A stretch of 64,000 nt of DNA from a virus. The position numbers were made by a program, and so were the translations under genes. Below are positions 4,124 to 55,968 of the stretch, piece after piece. The DNA is taken from positions 124,001 to 188,000 of the IMG/VR virus record IMGVR_UViG_3300032315_001604. The stretch is one strand, 5' to 3'. Numbering within the stretch: position 1 is the first letter of the stretch; every line of letters begins with the position of its first letter. Below the pieces are notes generated by a model that had not been told where the DNA came from, ran no database searches, and saw only the letters and a program-made list of their open reading frames with translations.

Positions 4124-5977
4124 ATGGCAGATATTTTATCACAACCTAACAGACAACCAGATAACGGAAGAAATTTTGTAACGTCAATTTTGTCTAAATT
4201 GCCATATGTTCAAGATGTAGTCGAAACAGAAGCAAATAATCCCAAATATGAATTGTTCGATAGACTCTCAAAAAAGAGAGAGTTAAAAATCATGCAACAG
4301 TCGGTCATAACAGGACCGTACATGAATAAAGAATTTTCAGATTACTATAATCCAAATGCAATCACATCAGACAAAGGGTATCACAACTACATATACGCTC
4401 AAATAGATAGTGATAAAATTCGCAGATTAGCCGAATATCGTCGTATGGCAGCTTTTGCAGAAGTTGCTGATTGTTTAGATGAAATATGTGACGAATTCGT
4501 AAATTTTGATGATAACGGCAAAGCTGTTAATATTAAATTTTCAGGGTTTAACAAATTAAGTACCGAGGAAAGAAGCGAAATTGAAAAAGAATTTTACAAA
4601 TTTATTAACAGTTTTGATTTAGAACATAAAGGTTGGGGATATTGTCGCCAGTTGCTTATCGAAGGAGAACTATTTTTTGAAAATATCATTCATGATGAAA
4701 AGAAAGAGTTAGGTATTATAGGAATACTAGGAATACCAGGTGAATTGATCAATCCAGTTTATGATAATATTCAAAATAATGTCATTCAAAACTTTCTTTT
4801 TCAAAAACCTATAAGTCTTTTAAACAATCCTGCTGCTCCAAATTTTCAAACTAACGTAACACCAGCAAATGCACTGCAACATCAGATTGTCACACTTCAA
4901 GGAAACCAAATAACATATATTAACTCTGGTTTATGGAATGAAGATGCATCAATTAAAATTCCATATATAGAAAATTGTCGTAGAGCATACAAACAATTGT
5001 CATTAATTGAAGATTCTATTGTTATATATCGTTTAGTTAGAGCACCAGAAAGATTAAAATTTACTATTGATGTCGGAAACATGCCACCTGCAAAAGCAGA
5101 AGCATATCTACGTCAATTGATGCAACAATATTGGACAAAAAAAACATACGATTCACAATCAAATACTGGAGGTGGAGCATCAAACGTATATGACCCACAA
5201 TCAATGCTTGATTCTTATTGGTTTGCAAGAAGAACAGGAGAACAAGGATCAGATGTTCAAGTGTTACCAGGTGGACAAAACTTAGGAGAACTAAAAGATT
5301 TAATGTATTTTGTTAACAAACTTTATAAAAGTTTAGGTGTTCCTTTATCCAGATTGAATCCAGAAGATACATTTAAAGATGGTTCAGAAATTTTAAGAGA
5401 AGAATTAAAATTTGCAAAAACAATCATACGCATACAAAATCAATTTGCAGGAGGATTGAAAGATGCATTTATTACCCATTTAAAAATTAGAGGATGGTGG
5501 AAAGAATATAAATTGCATGAATCATATTTTGATCTTTCTTTTGTGCCACCTACAAATTTCTTTGCATTAAGACAAAACCAAAACTTTGAATTAAAACTTA
5601 AAAACTTCAATGACATTTCACAAAATGATTCCATATCAAAAACATTTGCACAAAGACATTATTTGAATTTGAGTGATGGTAAAATTAGTGAAAATATGGA
5701 ATGGCTCAGAAAAGATGCTGCTCTTAAATGGGAATTAGAGCAAATTGCAACAACAGGTCCAAATTGGAGAGATCATATTCAAGCAGCAGAAGACGCAAGC
5801 AAAGCAGCAGCGGAATCTACATCTTCAACAGGTACATCTACATCAGAAATACCTGAATTTGGCGGTGGAGGAGAGGGAACAACAGCAGAAACACCAGAAG
5901 CAGCACCAGAAACAACAGAAATTTCAGCAGAAGCTACACCTGAAACAGCAGAAACTCCAGCAGAAACAACAACATAA
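4124..5977 (+). CDS. gp20: Portal vertex protein (T4 gp20 type)
   Basis: A 617-residue portal protein. The N-terminal half has the gp20-type run AEYRRMAAFAEVADCLDEIC, and the centre carries the stem and crown-like segments (IVIYRLVRAPERLKF, then a YWTKK region and RRTGEQGSDVQVLPGGQN). Portals form the dodecameric ring through which DNA is packaged and ejected, and they nucleate prohead assembly. The last 80 residues are a low-complexity tail of Ala, Glu, Thr and Pro after the usual end, making it longer than T4 gp20 (524). A possible ACTAAGTA box lies 23 nt upstream, farther than for most genes. It precedes head-shell genes after a fibre insertion. Confidence 0.9.
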   Translation: MADILSQPNRQPDNGRNFVTSILSKLPYVQDVVETEANNPKYELFDRLSKKRELKIMQQSVITGPYMNKEFSDYYNPNAITSDKGYHNYIYAQIDSDKIRRLAEYRRMAAFAEVADCLDEICDEFVNFDDNGKAVNIKFSGFNKLSTEERSEIEKEFYKFINSFDLEHKGWGYCRQLLIEGELFFENIIHDEKKELGIIGILGIPGELINPVYDNIQNNVIQNFLFQKPISLLNNPAAPNFQTNVTPANALQHQIVTLQGNQITYINSGLWNEDASIKIPYIENCRRAYKQLSLIEDSIVIYRLVRAPERLKFTIDVGNMPPAKAEAYLRQLMQQYWTKKTYDSQSNTGGGASNVYDPQSMLDSYWFARRTGEQGSDVQVLPGGQNLGELKDLMYFVNKLYKSLGVPLSRLNPEDTFKDGSEILREELKFAKTIIRIQNQFAGGLKDAFITHLKIRGWWKEYKLHESYFDLSFVPPTNFFALRQNQNFELKLKNFNDISQNDSISKTFAQRHYLNLSDGKISENMEWLRKDAALKWELEQIATTGPNWRDHIQAAEDASKAAAESTSSTGTSTSEIPEFGGGGEGTTAETPEAAPETTEISAEATPETAETPAETTT

Positions 5978-42896: not shown

Positions 42897-43370
42897 ATGA
42901 ATAATAGCGATAGCAATATTAGTATAACATTTATATCTAACCAAGTTGAAAGTACTTTAGATTCAACAAGAAATTTCGGAATATTTTTAAATAAGTCATT
43001 ATCTATAATTAAAATGTGTCATTGGTATACAGAAGATTATAATGCACATAAAATACTTGGAAAAGTTTATGATAATCTTTCAGATCTTTTTGATTCATTA
43101 CAAGAAGAAATTATTGGAACATCCAAACAACAAGGAAAACCATTTCCTGAAATTTTTATAGAAATAGATTTAGAAAATATACAAAACTACAGACCCGTAG
43201 AAGGTATCAATATGCAATCTTATTATAAAGCAAGTCAAGCTATTATAACGACATTAACATGTCAAGAAATGACAGCTTATACATCATCCGTAATATCAGG
43301 TATAAACAATACAAAAGAAGAAATTATTTCGGTATTAAACAATGCTAACTATTTGTTAGCTATGATTTAA
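42897..43370 (+). CDS. Dps/ferritin-like helical protein
   Basis: A 157-residue protein, mostly helical. A KMCHWYTEDYNAHKILGKVYD helix is followed by LSDLFDSLQEEIIG, giving His42-Trp43, His51, Asp63, Asp66 and Glu70/Glu71. This HW...H...D...E spacing is the signature of Dps ferroxidase sites. Several phages encode a ferritin-like protein of this size (DUF5856 type). Dps proteins sequester iron and protect or bind DNA. Here the gene has a late box and lies among virion genes, so it could be packaged or act late in infection. The fold call is from spacing only. Its stop is interlocked with the convergent adhesin gene. Confidence 0.55.
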   Translation: MNNSDSNISITFISNQVESTLDSTRNFGIFLNKSLSIIKMCHWYTEDYNAHKILGKVYDNLSDLFDSLQEEIIGTSKQQGKPFPEIFIEIDLENIQNYRPVEGINMQSYYKASQAIITTLTCQEMTAYTSSVISGINNTKEEIISVLNNANYLLAMI

Positions 43371-46300
43371 ACTAAAATTAAATATTGTTCTATATCTAGA
43401 ACTTTTGTTAAGATCGGCGTGGATGGTTTGTTTTGATCTAGTGATATATAAACATATAGTTTTTTATCTACACTACTATAGTCAATCCAGTTATAAAGAT
43501 ATTTGTTTATTCCTGTACTACCACACATATCAAATCCCACAGTACTTTGAATTGCTATTGACGATGTTACATTACCATCTACATCAATTTCTATATGATT
43601 GTTATTTGGATCGTATGGAGCATTTGTGAAAGTATCATATAAAATACCAACACTATTTGGTATACCTTGATATCCCATACCAAAACCGCCACCACCTTCA
43701 TTTGTACTATTACTTTGTAATATAAAACCAAGACCATCGGCTCTAGTTCCTCCACCCATAGAAGATATAAAATAAACAGACCAATCAATTAATTGTCCTA
43801 AATTGTTTTTAATAAAAACTGGAACATTATAGTTTACATTACCTGTTTTTCCTTGTAATGCTCTAGTTAATTTTATACTACCATTTTCAACTTCGACATC
43901 ACCTAAGAATGTACTGTCATTTAAAAATTGTGTAAATTCAATAACATTAAATTCACTCGACCATCTTGCATAATGAATCCAATGTTGATTTGTTAAAGCA
44001 CCAGTTCCTGCACAGAAACCAATATATGTAGAATTTTGACCTACTATAGGTTGTGTTGGAATTATATATGGTGTTGGCGATCCTTTGAATAAACCATACT
44101 CGTTTCCATATATATCACTTCTCCATTGTGATAATTCACCTTTGTTAACCAAAAGACCTCTTTTTCTTAAATCATAAACAGAAGCCATTAATTCTCTACG
44201 ATATGTTAAAGGATAATTTTTTTCATCATTCCAAACAGCAGGATATGTATCAGTCCAAAATTCTATTTTATCATTTTGTCTAGATAATCCGTGATGATTT
44301 TTATTTAAAATTTCATATGTTGTCTGATATGGAGTAAATTTTTGATTTTCTCTTGTATTGATTAACATGCCTTTACGTTGTCCAGAATTAAATGATTCCA
44401 CTAACCATCTATTATCTATAGATTTTATTGACACTGGAGCAATCTGATCTTTTTTAGTTAATCCTCTGTTTCTTCCGCCATATTTTTGTGTACTGAAAAA
44501 TGTTTTTTCGGCACTTAATGTTTCAAACAAAGTAATTTGATTTTTGTCAACTTCTATTTCATACCCCTTTCCTCTGTAAAAAGATACTCCTAAATGAATC
44601 GGTGTCAAATATCCACCATATTGTTTTTCTGAAACCAAATTTTTTGGTACAAAAACTGTAGCCAATGTCGGATAATGCATGTTTAATAAGTTTACATAAG
44701 GTTCTGTTGGTGTTACAATAGCACCAGTATTAAACACGACAAACGTATTATCACATCGATTTATATTGTATAAATCTTGAGTATAAGTAAATGATTTTCT
44801 TGCGTAATAATTGTATCTAGACAATCTAAAATTCGAATAGCTTTCGAGAATCGTGTCACTCGGTTCATCAGAACCATATCCGTAAAAGTTAAATTCTCCG
44901 TTTTTTAATATTTCATTTAAATTATAATAATCTTTTTCAAAAACCAATTTATTCCATTGATGGTCTGATAAAGTAGAAGTCAATGTAACAGGCTGTTTCC
45001 ATTCCATTGATGCGTTCTTTCTTCTAAAATACTGTATAAAATCTCCACTATTGATAACCATAGTAGAAACATCGGGCTGTCTTATTGGAACATATTCATA
45101 TACAAAACGAACATTTCCTCCAAAATGGTTTGTTTCTTTTTTAAAATCATCATTTAAAACTGCAACCGATACTGCCCAATATGGTTTTGCGCCATAATCT
45201 TCACCTATATTGCTTAAACTAAATGTATTTGTATTATAGTTCCAACCATTTAATTTTGTATTGATTGCAAAACTAATTCCACTGGTAGTAAACCCTGAAT
45301 CTAAATCCTCTCCAATATAACTAATATTTTCACGGTGAACATAGATTAGATAATCTCCTGGACTTAAAACCATATCTGAAGGTTCGTTTAAACCAATCCA
45401 AGAACCACTACTATTTCTAATTGCTTTATTCCAGCTTGGTACAACTGATGTACATTGGTTTACAACAGCAGCTATTCTCTGAGAAAGAGAAAATTCATCA
45501 CCATTTCCTTCTGTTAAATATTTTTGTAAATTAAAATAATAACCAGTACCAGAAACAATTTGTTCAATTACATTATTACTGGATGATAACAATCCTATAT
45601 CTACACCATAAATTTGAATTCCAGAATTTTTTAATCTTGTTGCTTCGGGTATAACTAAATTTGCATCTATATTACTTTCGCCATCGCTTATCAACAATAT
45701 TTTTTTACCACAATTTTGTGGTAGATTTAAAAGCTTGGCTTGGTCGTTATCACTCGCAACAATTGTATTGAGATTATTACACAAATCTTGTAAATCAATT
45801 CCTGAACCACTATCAGTGGGTATTCTGTTTTTTAATAAAAATTCAGCTAATACTAAAGCATTTTTTATATTTGTTTTGTAATTTGGAGATGTTGTTGGTA
45901 TTGCAAAACTTCTTAAATTAAATTCTAAAGCTCCTGATTTTTTTGTCAAATATGATACTAAAGAAGCTTCGCGGTTAAAAACAACCAAACCTATTTGTAT
46001 ATTTGGATTTTTTCCATTTAATAGCGTTTTTGATATTTCAATTGCTAAAGTTTTACTCTGTTCAACAGTAAGTTTTTGAGAATTACTAATATCTAACGCT
46101 ATAATTAAATCATAACATCCTTGTGTCAGAGGATCTGGAGAGCATACGCCTCTTAATTCTTTATAAGAATATTTAACAACATAATACGGTGATATAATCC
46201 CATCAGCTACTGTAGATGTTGCATCTTTTCTTAGAGAAGAACGAATATATGTATATCTTCTTCCTGTTTTTAAAATCATGGATTGATCTGTTCCTGTTTT

Positions 46301-48565
46301 CCAATATCCTTCACCCCAACCAACTTTCGAATCTCCTTTTGTTAATTTATAAAAAGAAAACTGAGGACTATTTAAATAGTTTAACCCTCTTGTATCAGAC
46401 CAATTATCAAAATTAAATTCTTCTTGAAGACCATCAGGATCTGCAAAAAGTAAATCAGTCATGGTGCTATAGTCTGTTGGTATGTTTCCTTCATGTCCTA
46501 TCGGAGAATAATAAACAGATTTGCAGCTACATTTAGTCCAATGATTTAAATCTTTTAATTGTTTAGGATTTTGATAATCTTGATCGTCATAATAGTTATG
46601 AGATTCTTTACCATATGGGCAATTTGGTGCATGTTCAAAAAACTTAAATACATCATCAGCAGGTGTATCTTTATCATTCCAAACAAAAGAAACTGCTTCA
46701 GATCCTTCGATTAAAATAGATAATGATGGTTGTACTGGTCCATCAATATATTTTGCACATTTTATGGCAGGATCATCATAAATTTTGTAAGTGTTTGTGG
46801 ATATATCTAAATTTTGAATTGATGTTGAGGCAAGCCATGCTGCTTCAATTGGACTACTGGTTCTAGAATTTAGTTTATAAACAACATCAGCAGTATTAAA
46901 ATCTAAACCAGCCACGGCTCCTGGCATAACTTCAGCTACATTCAAATTAGCCAAACTGACGGGTATGCTAGTATCTTGTAAAACCGTAAGAGGAATATTA
47001 TCAGAATTTTCAAAAGCTTTAAGTGGCCAATATATTTGATTTAAACCTAAAGTAATTGGAATGTTTGTTCTTTGAAATTTATATAAATATGCAACTTCCG
47101 TATTTCCTAAATCTTCATCGTTGTATACCAAGTCGATTTGATTTTCTGGATTATTTCTGCGAATTAAAACATCTCCATCAATAGTAAATTCTCCAGCTTG
47201 AGCACCCCCTTTTATTAATGTAGATTGATTTATATAAAAAAGAGAAGAACTACTATTTGGAAGAGTTTCGGTAAAATATCTTTTTAAGATATCTTTCTTT
47301 TTTGTATCGTCTAATAAATCATATATCCCTGAACTTTCATCTGTAATCGCATGACCTAACCAATTTGCACCTTTAGTAGTTAAATTAAAACCAACATATG
47401 GGAATATAAATTCTTTAACATCTAAAGGTCCGATTTTAACACTGGCTGTAACAGGAGAAGAAATAGATCTATATCCTCTTAACCATGCACCTTCAACAAT
47501 TCCGTTTTTATCAGTAAAAACTAAATCAGATTCTTCATAAGATCCTCTGCCAGTAGCACTAGATGCCACAAAATTAGAATTATTAATTAAGATAGGTTTT
47601 AAATAATTTTCACTAACTGAAGCATCTATCGCTTTACTACCACTTGGCCAGACAAACCAATTATTTCCTTCTGTAAAGTTTAAATTTAAAATCTGGTCTG
47701 GTAAATTTAAATCTCTGAGCCTAATAGCGGTTAAACCATATAAGGTTTCGCCCATATATTTTTCGGTAGCAGCGATTTGATAATTGATTAAATCTGTAGC
47801 TTTTACTTGTGCAGGACCATCAGAAGCAACTTCATTAGAAGAAATAAAATCCAAATATGCTTGATATACTTGACTTAAAGGATTTTCAGCAACTCTTGGT
47901 AAAAACCTAGTGTTTAGTATACCTATAATTTCATCTTCTGTTAAATCTTCATATGGATAAGAGTTTAAAATATCATTGATGTTTACATAATCTGTAACAG
48001 GAACCGTTGGATCTGAATCCAAGTAATTGTTCGTATCATATAACTCTTCTACTTCTATAAAAAAATTGTCTTTAACAGCAGATAAATTTGGAAAAAATGC
48101 TTGAAGAGGAGAAGCAGGAACTTGTGTTATAAAGTTTTCAGTTTTTGTAAAGGATCTTAAAACATATTCATAAAGTAAGGTTTCTAAACCATCATGTGAT
48201 CCATTTAAATTATGTTTTAATTTTGATTTTTTAACAGATGTTCTTTTTGCATTTAATACCTTTGCAATTTCCTTTAATTTTCTTGAAAAATAAGGTATAG
48301 CAAAAATTAATTCTTCAGGATTATTATAATCAATATCTTTTAAAAACCTATCTTTTTCTTCTTGATTAAACAAATAACTTAAATCTTTTATAAGCTGTAG
48401 ATATTCTTGTTTTATTTGCTCTTGGGGTTTGATAAAGTTTTTAGTTTTACTCAAATACCAATTTTTTAAATAATCCATGTATGCTTTTTGTGGATCTTCG
48501 GTTATTCCTATTTTTTGAATAGCTAACCAGTTTTTATAAGAATATGGATTTTGCGTGTCGGTCAT
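43367..48565 (-). CDS. Giant adhesin with VWA and L-type lectin domains
   Basis: A 1732-residue protein on the minus strand. Residues 1-800 are an N-terminal helical head then beta domains, with a Cys-rich patch near 650-690 (NCPYGKESH, KCSCK). A von Willebrand A domain (about 810-1030) has the MIDAS motif DISNS, a QIGLVVF strand and ISDGES. Beta domains follow. The C terminus (about 1560-1725) is an L-type lectin fold: ADGLGFILQ, GGGFGMGYQGIPNSVGILYDT, then DPNNNHIEIDVDG. The lectin Asp/Asn residues would bind calcium and sugar. It probably recognises a surface glycan. It follows a 53-residue gene in the same operon. Confidence 0.8.
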   Translation of the reverse strand: MTDTQNPYSYKNWLAIQKIGITEDPQKAYMDYLKNWYLSKTKNFIKPQEQIKQEYLQLIKDLSYLFNQEEKDRFLKDIDYNNPEELIFAIPYFSRKLKEIAKVLNAKRTSVKKSKLKHNLNGSHDGLETLLYEYVLRSFTKTENFITQVPASPLQAFFPNLSAVKDNFFIEVEELYDTNNYLDSDPTVPVTDYVNINDILNSYPYEDLTEDEIIGILNTRFLPRVAENPLSQVYQAYLDFISSNEVASDGPAQVKATDLINYQIAATEKYMGETLYGLTAIRLRDLNLPDQILNLNFTEGNNWFVWPSGSKAIDASVSENYLKPILINNSNFVASSATGRGSYEESDLVFTDKNGIVEGAWLRGYRSISSPVTASVKIGPLDVKEFIFPYVGFNLTTKGANWLGHAITDESSGIYDLLDDTKKKDILKRYFTETLPNSSSSLFYINQSTLIKGGAQAGEFTIDGDVLIRRNNPENQIDLVYNDEDLGNTEVAYLYKFQRTNIPITLGLNQIYWPLKAFENSDNIPLTVLQDTSIPVSLANLNVAEVMPGAVAGLDFNTADVVYKLNSRTSSPIEAAWLASTSIQNLDISTNTYKIYDDPAIKCAKYIDGPVQPSLSILIEGSEAVSFVWNDKDTPADDVFKFFEHAPNCPYGKESHNYYDDQDYQNPKQLKDLNHWTKCSCKSVYYSPIGHEGNIPTDYSTMTDLLFADPDGLQEEFNFDNWSDTRGLNYLNSPQFSFYKLTKGDSKVGWGEGYWKTGTDQSMILKTGRRYTYIRSSLRKDATSTVADGIISPYYVVKYSYKELRGVCSPDPLTQGCYDLIIALDISNSQKLTVEQSKTLAIEISKTLLNGKNPNIQIGLVVFNREASLVSYLTKKSGALEFNLRSFAIPTTSPNYKTNIKNALVLAEFLLKNRIPTDSGSGIDLQDLCNNLNTIVASDNDQAKLLNLPQNCGKKILLISDGESNIDANLVIPEATRLKNSGIQIYGVDIGLLSSSNNVIEQIVSGTGYYFNLQKYLTEGNGDEFSLSQRIAAVVNQCTSVVPSWNKAIRNSSGSWIGLNEPSDMVLSPGDYLIYVHRENISYIGEDLDSGFTTSGISFAINTKLNGWNYNTNTFSLSNIGEDYGAKPYWAVSVAVLNDDFKKETNHFGGNVRFVYEYVPIRQPDVSTMVINSGDFIQYFRRKNASMEWKQPVTLTSTLSDHQWNKLVFEKDYYNLNEILKNGEFNFYGYGSDEPSDTILESYSNFRLSRYNYYARKSFTYTQDLYNINRCDNTFVVFNTGAIVTPTEPYVNLLNMHYPTLATVFVPKNLVSEKQYGGYLTPIHLGVSFYRGKGYEIEVDKNQITLFETLSAEKTFFSTQKYGGRNRGLTKKDQIAPVSIKSIDNRWLVESFNSGQRKGMLINTRENQKFTPYQTTYEILNKNHHGLSRQNDKIEFWTDTYPAVWNDEKNYPLTYRRELMASVYDLRKRGLLVNKGELSQWRSDIYGNEYGLFKGSPTPYIIPTQPIVGQNSTYIGFCAGTGALTNQHWIHYARWSSEFNVIEFTQFLNDSTFLGDVEVENGSIKLTRALQGKTGNVNYNVPVFIKNNLGQLIDWSVYFISSMGGGTRADGLGFILQSNSTNEGGGGFGMGYQGIPNSVGILYDTFTNAPYDPNNNHIEIDVDGNVTSSIAIQSTVGFDMCGSTGINKYLYNWIDYSSVDKKLYVYISLDQNKPSTPILTKVLDIEQYLILV

Positions 48566-52336: not shown

Positions 52337-53089
52337 ATGGCAAAAATAAATTTTTTAGCTTCTTCAAAAGAAGTATTAAGCGATTTTCCGCATCCTGAAC
52401 CATCAAATAAATTTGTACCAAACTGGTACAAAGACATGCCTTCTTTTACAACCAAAGAAAAATATATTACCGATGCAGGAAACATAAACGGTACAGTTAA
52501 ATTGTGTGTGCCATTTAGAGATGCAATGTTTGCAGGGTATTCTATACCTTTACCTTTTGATGTTTATTTTAAAAGAATGGGGAAAGATTTAAATATAAAT
52601 TCATCATATTGTGGAGACTTTCAAATTGTATATAATCACGAACCAGAACAATTTTTTATGTATCCAATCCCAAAGGAATATGAACCAATAGCTTTTAAGT
52701 GGAATAATCCTTGGATTGTTCAAACCCCGAAAGGTTGGTCTACTCTTTTTACGACACCAACTCATCATGATTTACCTTTCATAAATCTGAGTGGTATTGT
52801 TGATACCGATAAACACCCTTTGCCTGTTGCAATAATATTTTTTATCAGAAAAGACTTTGAAGGTATTATACCGAAAGGCACTCCAATTGCTCAATGTATT
52901 CCTATTAAAAGAGATAATTTTATAGGTTATATCGGACAACGAACAGAAAATTTATATAGTAAATGGCGTAAGGCAACAACTCAAGCTATGGATAGATATA
53001 AAGATTATTTTCATACGCCCAAAGTTTATAAAATCGATAAAACAGAATCTAAATGTCCGTTTGCGAAAATGTTTAAAAATAATTCTTGA
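52337..53089 (+). CDS. DUF6065-like conserved phage protein
   Basis: A 250-residue protein. Recognisable segments in order: VPNWYKDMPSF, CVPFRDAMFAGYSIPLPFDV, FKWNNPWIVQTPKGWSTLFT, FINLSGIVDTDKHPLPVAII, then IIPKGTPIAQCIPIKR. This order, with a NxWxIxTPxGxS core and a KGTPIxQxIPxKR end, is that of a conserved uncharacterised family in marine phages (I believe DUF6065). It is predicted to be a double-stranded beta-helix-like fold. No catalytic role is established. It has its own probable promoter. Confidence 0.6.
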   Translation: MAKINFLASSKEVLSDFPHPEPSNKFVPNWYKDMPSFTTKEKYITDAGNINGTVKLCVPFRDAMFAGYSIPLPFDVYFKRMGKDLNINSSYCGDFQIVYNHEPEQFFMYPIPKEYEPIAFKWNNPWIVQTPKGWSTLFTTPTHHDLPFINLSGIVDTDKHPLPVAIIFFIRKDFEGIIPKGTPIAQCIPIKRDNFIGYIGQRTENLYSKWRKATTQAMDRYKDYFHTPKVYKIDKTESKCPFAKMFKNNS

Positions 53090-53113
53090 AAAGAAAAAAA
53101 ACTAGTATATAAT
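53086..53113 (+). promoter_or_regulatory. Sigma70-like promoter of the ABC-GNAT operon
   Basis: TTGAAA (53086-53091), a 16-nt spacer, TATAAT (53108-53113); the ATG follows 6 nt later at 53120. Confidence 0.6.
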
Positions 53114-53119
53114 ATACAT

Positions 53120-53326
53120 ATGAATCAAGCAAAAACAGATACGGTCAAAATCCAATTAAAACCAGCTTCAAATTTTAATCAAAGAGAAAAAATGATTAAT
53201 GTTGAAATTCAAAAAACTATTGATCTTTATAATACCAAAGGCTATACAGTTTTAAATCATGAAACTGTAAATAAAACTGATAGCTTTGCAACTGTTAAAT
53301 TTACTCTTAAAAGAATGATTGGTTAA
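53120..53326 (+). CDS. Small hypothetical protein, leader gene of the ABC-GNAT operon
   Basis: A 68-residue protein of the helix-strand type (MINVEIQKTIDLYNTKGYTV, then SFATVKFTLKRM). A ferredoxin-like or dodecin-like small fold is possible, but nothing decisive is seen. Its TAA overlaps the ATG of the ABC-GNAT gene (TAATG), so the two are translationally coupled and may form a complex. Confidence 0.55.
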   Translation: MNQAKTDTVKIQLKPASNFNQREKMINVEIQKTIDLYNTKGYTVLNHETVNKTDSFATVKFTLKRMIG

Positions 53327-54432
53327 TGGTTGATATTATTTTAGAATCAGATATTGTACATGATTCTTATACTGAAGAAGCATGTCGATACTTTGATGTT
53401 CCATTTGAGGAAAAAAGTAGAGTTGTTGTTAAAAACAACATAGAATATCCTGCCGATTGGCAAGTAGGATTAATATATGGACCATCTGGTTCAGGTAAAA
53501 CAACACTTTTAAAAAGTATAGGAAAAATTAAAACAAATGAATGGGATCCGACTAAAGCAGTTATATCTAATTTTGCTCCAAAAGATTTCGAATCTGTTTC
53601 TTTGGCTTTATGTTCAGTGGGCTTATCCACTATTCCTTCTTGGTATCGGTCTTACCACAATTTATCTAATGGAGAAAAATTTCGGGCTGATCTTGCAAAA
53701 ACCTTGATTTCTGATGACAAAATTCATCTTGTGGATGAATTTACATCAGTAGTAGATCGAACAGTAGCAAAAAGCGTTTCTTATGCTGTGTCCAAATGGA
53801 TTAGAAATAATCCAAATAAAAAAACAATCTTTGCCTCATGTCATGAGGACATCATAGATTGGCTACAACCCGATTGGATATACAATCCTCTGGAAGGCAC
53901 AACAGTCTATCCAAGAGGCTGTCTTCAGCGACCACCAATTAATCTCAAAATTTTCAGAGTCAAATACGAAGCGTGGGAATTGTTTAAACAACATCATTAT
54001 TTAACTCAATCATTGAATAAAGCAGCAAAAAGCTTTATGGTTACTTGGAATGATAGACCTGTTGCTTTTAATGCAACATTGTCTTTTCCTCATCCTTATT
54101 TAAAAAAAGCTTGGAGAGGAAGCCGTACTGTTGTATTGCCAGATTATCAAGGGTTAGGCATAGGCTCTTGGCTTTCGGATTACATCGGATCTATGGTCAA
54201 AGCAAACGGAGGAAGATTTTTTTCTAAAACAACACATCCTGCCATGATTTCTTATAGACTAAAAAGCCAAAGCTGGAAAGAAACAACACACTCAAGAAAA
54301 GCACGTAAATCTAATAATGTAAGTATGCTTGCTCGAAATTGGGTAGCAACTGAAAGATATTGTTATGCATTTGAATATGTAGGACCGTCCTCCACAAGAG
54401 AAGAATCTCATTTATTTTGGGAAAAGTGTTGA
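53326..54432 (+). CDS. ABC-type ATPase fused to a GNAT/Mom-like domain
   Basis: A 368-residue fusion. The first 200 residues are an ABC ATPase without membrane parts: Walker A GPSGSGKTT at 52-60, signature LSNGEKFRADLAK from 113, Walker B IHLVDEF near 133-139, and an H-loop SCHED near 172. Residues about 205-368 are GNAT-like, with HHYL near 222-226 and the acyl-CoA-type loop YQGLGIGSW at 274-282. The second half resembles the DNA-modifying Mom family, which alters adenine, but protein or small-molecule acyl transfer is also possible. The ATPase probably remodels or loads the transferase on DNA. Non-structural gene with a sigma70-like promoter. Confidence 0.75.
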   Translation: MVDIILESDIVHDSYTEEACRYFDVPFEEKSRVVVKNNIEYPADWQVGLIYGPSGSGKTTLLKSIGKIKTNEWDPTKAVISNFAPKDFESVSLALCSVGLSTIPSWYRSYHNLSNGEKFRADLAKTLISDDKIHLVDEFTSVVDRTVAKSVSYAVSKWIRNNPNKKTIFASCHEDIIDWLQPDWIYNPLEGTTVYPRGCLQRPPINLKIFRVKYEAWELFKQHHYLTQSLNKAAKSFMVTWNDRPVAFNATLSFPHPYLKKAWRGSRTVVLPDYQGLGIGSWLSDYIGSMVKANGGRFFSKTTHPAMISYRLKSQSWKETTHSRKARKSNNVSMLARNWVATERYCYAFEYVGPSSTREESHLFWEKC

Positions 54433-55428: not shown

Positions 55429-55968
55429 ATGTCTATTATAAATGCACCAGCAGATCAGTGTTCAGGATATGGTTTAATCGAACTTTTAAAAGATAAAGGT
55501 AAAATTAAAGGATTAGAAATAGGTTGTGCAGAAGGCACAACATCAGAATTTTTATTAAAAAGTTTACCAGATTTAGATCTTTGGGGTGTTGATCCGTATG
55601 AAGATTATACGGATTGGAACGGAAACCATTTAGATAAATTAAATGAAAAATTTATTAATACTTTAAATCTTCTAAAACCTTTTGAAAGTCGTTTTAAATT
55701 AATAAGAAAATATTCTGATAATGCGGTTGGGGATTTTGAAGATGAAAGTTTAGATTTTATTTTTGTCGATGGTCTTCATACATACGATCAAGTTAAAAAA
55801 GATTTGGAGAACTTTTATCCTAAACTTAAAAAAGGTGGTTTGTTTTCAGGACATGACTTTCATAACATTAAAGAGGTAAAAGATGCAGTTAAAGAATTTG
55901 CAATTCAACAAGGACTGCAACAAATCAATTCCACTCTTTATGATGTTTGGTATTGGTGGAAAAATTAA
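55429..55968 (+). CDS. Class I SAM-dependent methyltransferase (Methyltransf_24 type)
   Basis: A 179-residue Rossmann methyltransferase. Motif I LEIGCAEGT (residues 29-37) binds SAM, Asp55 in LWGVDPY is the acidic ribose contact, and LDFIFVDGLHTYDQVKKDLE gives motif IV with the metal-type DGxH seen in this family. GGLFSGHDFH (about 140-150) is typical of Methyltransf_24/cephalosporin-hydroxylase-like enzymes. Such enzymes often methylate sugars or small molecules; DNA is less likely. The stop codon is interlocked with the convergent gene. Confidence 0.75.
   Translation: MSIINAPADQCSGYGLIELLKDKGKIKGLEIGCAEGTTSEFLLKSLPDLDLWGVDPYEDYTDWNGNHLDKLNEKFINTLNLLKPFESRFKLIRKYSDNAVGDFEDESLDFIFVDGLHTYDQVKKDLENFYPKLKKGGLFSGHDFHNIKEVKDAVKEFAIQQGLQQINSTLYDVWYWWKN

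Follow-up and report, generated by a model that had tools for sequence, protein, structure and literature searches.

The locus and its genes

The window, which is the whole stretch of 64,000 nucleotides that was analysed, represents bases 124001–188000 of a viral record of 195,163 bases, with a G+C content of 31%. Genes of a portal, a major head protein, a clamp loader, a tail sheath stabiliser and a baseplate wedge were found in it, and the source is a large, contractile-tailed phage that is probably T4-like. The studied locus includes the following features.

53086–53113, plus strand: sigma-70-like sequence TTGAAA-16-TATAAT upstream of the 68-residue open reading frame, 11 of 12 positions matching
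53120–53326, plus strand: open reading frame of 68 amino acid residues, whose stop codon overlaps the ATG of the next gene by 1 nt (TAATG)
53326–54432, plus strand: ABC ATPase–GNAT fusion gene of 368 amino acid residues, a member of the phrog_11143 family

The fusion gene is real and encodes an intact soluble ABC ATPase joined to a GNAT acyltransferase. The open reading frame and its motifs lie where the original prediction had placed them, and they are corroborated by Pfam, by the PHROGs family phrog_11143 (E 1e-113, residues 4–358) and by conservation in an alignment of 234 full-length relatives. An AlphaFold2 model of the protein, obtained with an alignment of 111 relatives as input, consists of two domains and has a pLDDT of 93.2 and a pTM of 0.89; a single-sequence run gave a pLDDT of 32.

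The surroundings of the gene had been described as a small, translationally coupled partner and an early-type promoter. The coupling stands as far as the overlap of 1 nt is concerned, but the 68-residue gene is not a conserved partner of the family, as only one distant relative of it was found in the first 101 family loci, 3.8 kb away from the family gene (locus L037). The promoter is not supported: the single sigma-70-like match, whose –10 box ends 6 nt ahead of the ATG, belongs to a type of site that is no commoner than chance (11 such sites observed against 8.6 ± 3.5 expected from shuffles).

The ABC ATPase domain

The N-terminal half of the protein contains the complete set of ABC motifs.

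53326–53928, plus strand: ABC ATPase domain, residues 1–201, soluble, without a transmembrane part
53479–53502, plus strand: Walker A GPSGSGKT, residues 52–59; G52, S54 and K58 invariant in the 234 relatives
53662–53676, plus strand: ABC signature LSNGE, residues 113–117; L113, S114 and G116 invariant in the 234 relatives
53728–53742, plus strand: Walker B LVDEF, residues 135–139, with catalytic E138; D137 and E138 invariant in the 234 relatives
53842–53844, plus strand: H-loop, H173, invariant in the 234 relatives

Residue D175 is likewise invariant. The match to Pfam ABC_tran (E 1e-8) and the superposition of the model on the nucleotide-binding domain (NBD) of PmtCD (6xji_C, Z 14.8, 172 residues, 2.7 Å, VIA-align) complete the picture of an ABC superfamily member having Walker A, the signature, Walker B with the catalytic Glu, the H-loop and the NBD fold; the motifs had been claimed from the letters of the DNA. 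A recognisable DNA-binding domain was found neither in this half nor in the GNAT half.

Many records annotate members of the family as transport proteins, using such names as "ABC iron siderophore transporter" and "hemin importer", and according to these names the protein would be the ATPase of an ABC transporter or a metabolic "moron" related to a drug or a siderophore. However, the model has no transmembrane domain and none of the recurrent linked neighbours is conspicuous as a membrane permease, so, apart from a possible unlinked partner, this reading was rejected as extremely improbable. Matches to PADLOC models (mad3, 94/111) were not accepted as membership in a defence system either, since they look like the common similarity of P-loop ATPases; the best stretch in the window protein is Walker A alone.

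The GNAT domain and its relation to Mom

The C-terminal half is a GNAT domain with two conserved segments.

53932–54387, plus strand: GNAT acyltransferase domain, residues 203–354
53983–54003, plus strand: FKQHHYL motif, residues 220–226; Y225 invariant and F220 nearly so in the 234 relatives
54124–54165, plus strand: acyl-CoA binding loop R267..Q275-G276-x-G278-x-G280; R267, P272 and G276 invariant in the 234 relatives

Q275 is kept in 230 of the 234 relatives, and V269 and G280 are also nearly constant. The GNAT fold and the R/Q-x-x-G-x-G/A acyl-CoA loop, present here as Q275-G-L-G-I-G280, place this half in the GNAT superfamily, and the HHYL and YQGLGIGSW (residues 274–282) of the original prediction are thus genuine parts of a GNAT domain joined to an ABC ATPase. 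Because the catalytic and CoA-loop residues are essentially invariant in the 234 relatives, the pattern fits a functional ATPase joined to a functional CoA-dependent transferase, and, judging by the sequence, both halves look active and not decaying.

By fold and sequence, the nearest proteins are ordinary GNATs, acting on proteins or small molecules. The domain matches Pfam Acetyltransf_7 (E 8e-4), its NCBIfam matches are RimI-like models, and VIA-align gave Z 14.1 with 1y9k (3.1 Å, 135 residues) and Z 13.2 with RimI 5isv. An alignment with protein N-acetyltransferases only had been named beforehand as an outcome that would speak against the prediction, and it was half observed, 1y9k and RimI being the neighbours of this domain.

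It had been suggested that the second half resembles Mom, and the protein would then be a true member of the Mom family, an adenine methylcarbamoylase, that has acquired an ABC domain. Mom of phage Mu (phrog_1384, PDB 8bv8) is also a phage GNAT-like acyltransferase, and the two share an H-Y pair in the opening part of the domain, HHYL in the window protein and HY in 8 of 8 aligned Mom proteins. On the other hand, Mom has no ABC domain, and its CoA site is different: the family studied here has P-D-Y-Q-G-x-G-x-G (PDYQGLGIG in the window protein) where most of the aligned Mom proteins have D-D-x-P-x-N-S-E-S, the conserved Q-x-x-G-x-G loop being missing from Mom. The alignment between the Mom and GNAT profiles extends over no more than about 50 columns surrounding HHYL, with a probability of 11–48%. 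The profile of the GNAT half reached many solved acetyltransferases but not Mom 8bv8, and no Mom model was found among the NCBIfam and PHROG matches of the window protein. In a fold search with the whole model, 8bv8 was not among the matches listed, the list being occupied by matches of the ABC domain. A search of the window's own record with a Mom alignment, run without a positive control, found nothing. PHROG keeps phrog_11143 apart from phrog_1384, and the literature also keeps Mom and the ABC-coupled GNAT separate (PMC7824862). The resemblance therefore comes down to a short HHYL-like segment; membership in the Mom family was rejected because of the local similarity, the canonical CoA loop foreign to Mom and the failure of the profile to reach 8bv8, and we consider it hardly probable. 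The GNAT half may nevertheless act in a Mom-like way.

Distribution of the family

Homologues are numerous. At least 590 relatives were confirmed in viral contigs and at least 419 in cellular genomes, and tblastn found the phrog_11143 family in 81 phage records, all of them less than 60% identical to the window protein. The identity of the latter reaches about 44% at most with named phages and 70% with environmental contigs. The pairing of ABC and GNAT was found in phages of many host phyla, both in large lytic phages and in prophages. A scan led by the GNAT domain gave 39 loci with split adjacent ABC and GNAT genes, 34 with fused genes and 5 with GNAT alone, the last 5 coming from short or incomplete stretches. 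As both fission and fusion occur, it may be argued that ABC and GNAT function together as a single unit.

Several loci have peculiarities of their own. In one of them, a second, separate GNAT of the family is encoded (5152–5724) immediately after a fused ABC–GNAT gene (L095:4001–5155). A gene of a putative 2-oxoglutarate/Fe(II) dioxygenase was noticed by eye 33 bases downstream of the family gene in the closest relatives, which have 70% identity (L001:6134–6679, also in L002 and L003). In phage pT24, a single in-frame stop interrupts the GNAT half of the ABC–GNAT gene (L007:8001–9173), and the annotation lists this gene as two "ABC transporter" genes.

Published predictions and similar systems

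Iyer et al. in 2013 (NAR gkt573) are said to have predicted that the ABC ATPase-coupled GNAT is a nucleobase acyl-modification system. The prediction of the Aravind group was restated later: the coupled GNAT would acylate a DNA base, separately from Mom, and phage pT24 and the accession QAX98348.1 are the examples named (PMC7824862). There it is listed under pT24, but the accession is one of Aeromonas phage AsFcp_2. The window protein has the same architecture and belongs to the same family, with 42% identity to the protein of pT24, a Tenacibaculum phage, and 36.5% to QAX98348.1; it is a coupled ABC and GNAT protein homologous to the named examples, for which the acylation of DNA is a prediction only. 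For no member of the family was biochemical evidence or an assay of its activity found. Since the same family is covered in PMC7824862, the idea is not new, both the architecture and the prediction of DNA acylation having been published. The window protein is new; its family and predicted function are known.

A comparable set of genes occurs in the T5-like phage Cyrano, where ParB-like genes, an ABC gene and a GNAT gene stand in a row, one product being annotated as "MK0520 protein, ABC-type ATPase fused to a predicted acetyltransferase domain". In contrast to the above examples, it is much more distant (25% identity over 65% of the query), and its GNAT belongs to phrog_886 and matches phrog_11143 weakly.

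ParB, formyltransferase-like and other neighbours

A gene with a ParB_N domain lies directly upstream of the family gene in 141 of the 220 loci having upstream sequence. The proportion is 66 of 77 in loci from cellular genomes and 72 of 73 in the loci with fused or split genes from the GNAT-led scan. The upstream protein has about 189 residues, and ParB_N is the sole Pfam model over the cut-off (E 2.7e-6). In a Gemmataceae contig, ParB, ABC and GNAT make up a single open reading frame of 611 residues (L328:3158–4993), with ParB at 46–223 and ABC–GNAT from 245. This type of ParB was found in 0 of 32 Mu-type Mom loci, so the linkage is not a trivial match.

The nearest relatives of the upstream ParB are N-terminal regions of DNA methyltransferases of phages (phrog_498, E 5.5e-52); it reaches 62.5% identity, over half of the query, with the DNA methyltransferase of Vibrio phage D82. 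In such fusions the same ParB_N module precedes a modifying enzyme; they differ in having an AdoMet methyltransferase as the catalytic part instead of ABC–GNAT, and the window phage differs from them in having no ParB_N match. In Microbacterium phage Appa (L216:1969–3121), a ParB-like gene directly precedes a Mom homologue and overlaps its start, so that ParB accompanies both kinds of phage acyltransferases. Taken together, the linkage with a methyltransferase-type ParB_N and the adjacency of ParB and Mom in Appa suggest that the substrate is DNA. In another system, DpdB, a ParB-like ATPase, takes part in the insertion of dPreQ0 into DNA (PMC12839542).

Forty loci contain a Formyl_trans_N gene (E 1.2e-18) directly downstream, and 39 of these 40 also have ParB. 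The formyltransferase-like genes (e.g., L125:4073–4849) retain HPSLLPxHRG and D-x-G, and the residue two positions ahead of His is mostly Gly. In the formyltransferase superfamily this position is usually occupied by Asn, and the replacement suggests that the chemistry may differ from ordinary formylation. The linkage with ParB_N and formyltransferase may already be contained in the paper of Iyer et al. 2013. Genes of ASCH/DUF3850 proteins lie directly downstream in 7 loci, all in the clade of the window protein. A terminase-like gene is present in 38 of 80 cellular loci, and the prophage operon is often just ahead of the terminase genes.

Bacterial ParB loads SMC, an ABC-type ATPase. By analogy with ParB–SMC, the operon might be regarded as a DNA-handling machine for segregation, packaging or the nucleoid, in which GNAT modifies a protein of the machine, and its frequent position ahead of the prophage terminase genes is in line with this. 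At the same time, the ParB of about 189 residues has ParB_N as its only Pfam model over the cut-off and is nearest to the N-termini of methyltransferases, the ABC domain of the AlphaFold2 model contains no long coiled-coil insertion, and large phages retain ABC–GNAT without any ParB_N match, which makes a machine of this kind rather improbable.

The clade of the window protein

In the family tree, the window protein belongs to a clade of 78 rows with a local support of 100 (FastTree, no bootstrap). No ParB neighbour was found in this clade. Neither ParB_N (PF02195) nor Formyl_trans_N gave a match in the 195 kb record of the window, which is possibly incomplete, and ParB_N gave none in the complete phages pT24, VmeM-32 and AsFcp_2. 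The window gene thus lacks the ParB_N gene directly upstream that defines the ParB–ABC–GNAT operon, and its product is, by sequence, a stand-alone, ParB-free version. As its clade is without ParB, the inference about DNA reaches the window protein via homology and not via its own neighbours.

The absence of ParB in this clade is also compatible with a protein acyltransferase serving host takeover or counter-defence, in which GNAT would acylate a host protein and the ABC domain would be regulatory or dimerising; such an enzyme would resemble the protein and small-molecule acetyltransferases of the RimI kind to which the GNAT half is close. Against it stand the methyltransferase-type ParB_N genes of the 141 loci, together with the ParB fusion, and the occurrence in both large lytic phages and prophages of many host phyla. 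Because the pairing spans so many phyla, a generic substrate such as DNA fits better than one host protein, and we regard the protein-acylating role as unlikely.

Proposed function

In our opinion, the most probable function (roughly 0.55) is ATP-gated, CoA-dependent acylation of phage DNA bases for evading restriction. A DNA-modifying role is best supported mainly because the prophage members follow a methyltransferase-type ParB_N gene, and it agrees with the published prediction (PMC7824862). Thus, of the base-modifying transferase for protection against restriction that was originally proposed, the DNA-modifying role is retained and Mom is not. What speaks against a DNA base is that ordinary GNATs are the closest neighbours of the GNAT half and that the link with DNA comes from the context of the sister clade.

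In ABC ATPases, the binding of ATP closes a head-to-tail dimer and its hydrolysis opens the dimer. By analogy, the ABC domain of the phage protein would form an ATP-dependent head-to-tail dimer, which might hold DNA like a clamp, shift it or control access to it, with two GNAT domains being brought onto the substrate. The GNAT domain would bind acyl-CoA via the Q-x-x-G-x-G loop, and the exocyclic amine of a base would receive the acyl moiety. In the clade with ParB, the ParB_N protein may bring the ABC–GNAT complex to DNA. We infer that the resulting acyl mark would help the phage genome to escape host nucleases, protection against restriction being the simplest form of this.

More tentatively, it is conceivable that ParB–ABC–GNAT, often with the formyltransferase-like enzyme, represents widespread ATP-driven acylation of DNA bases with a hitherto undescribed chemistry. 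ParB would recruit an ABC–GNAT motor to DNA and GNAT would attach an acyl or aminoacyl group, with the modification being completed by the formyltransferase-like enzyme in some phages, while the clade of the window protein would be a streamlined, ParB-free version of large phages.

If DNA is indeed acylated, the family would add ATP-coupled modification to the known types of base modification and would explain the block of genes ahead of the terminase in many prophages. Many records carry transporter-like names, and a probable DNA-modification system may thus be hidden by misannotation. The operons were found in laboratory-tractable phages, among them Lactococcus phage P335, which has split genes, and Pseudomonas phage Komp_PAO1_1, which has a formyltransferase-like gene; this makes the prediction of 2013 directly testable by nucleoside mass spectrometry. 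Nonlabens phage P12024S is another relative that can be cultured.

Other genes of the window

Two further genes of the window deserve mention.

43367–48565, minus strand: open reading frame of 1732 residues among long plus-strand open reading frames
55429–55968, plus strand: methyltransferase gene, 1 kb downstream of the fusion gene

The product of the latter matches Methyltransf_24 (E 6e-18) and phrog_2675, "DNA methyltransferase" (E 1.9e-19), DNA being its putative substrate.
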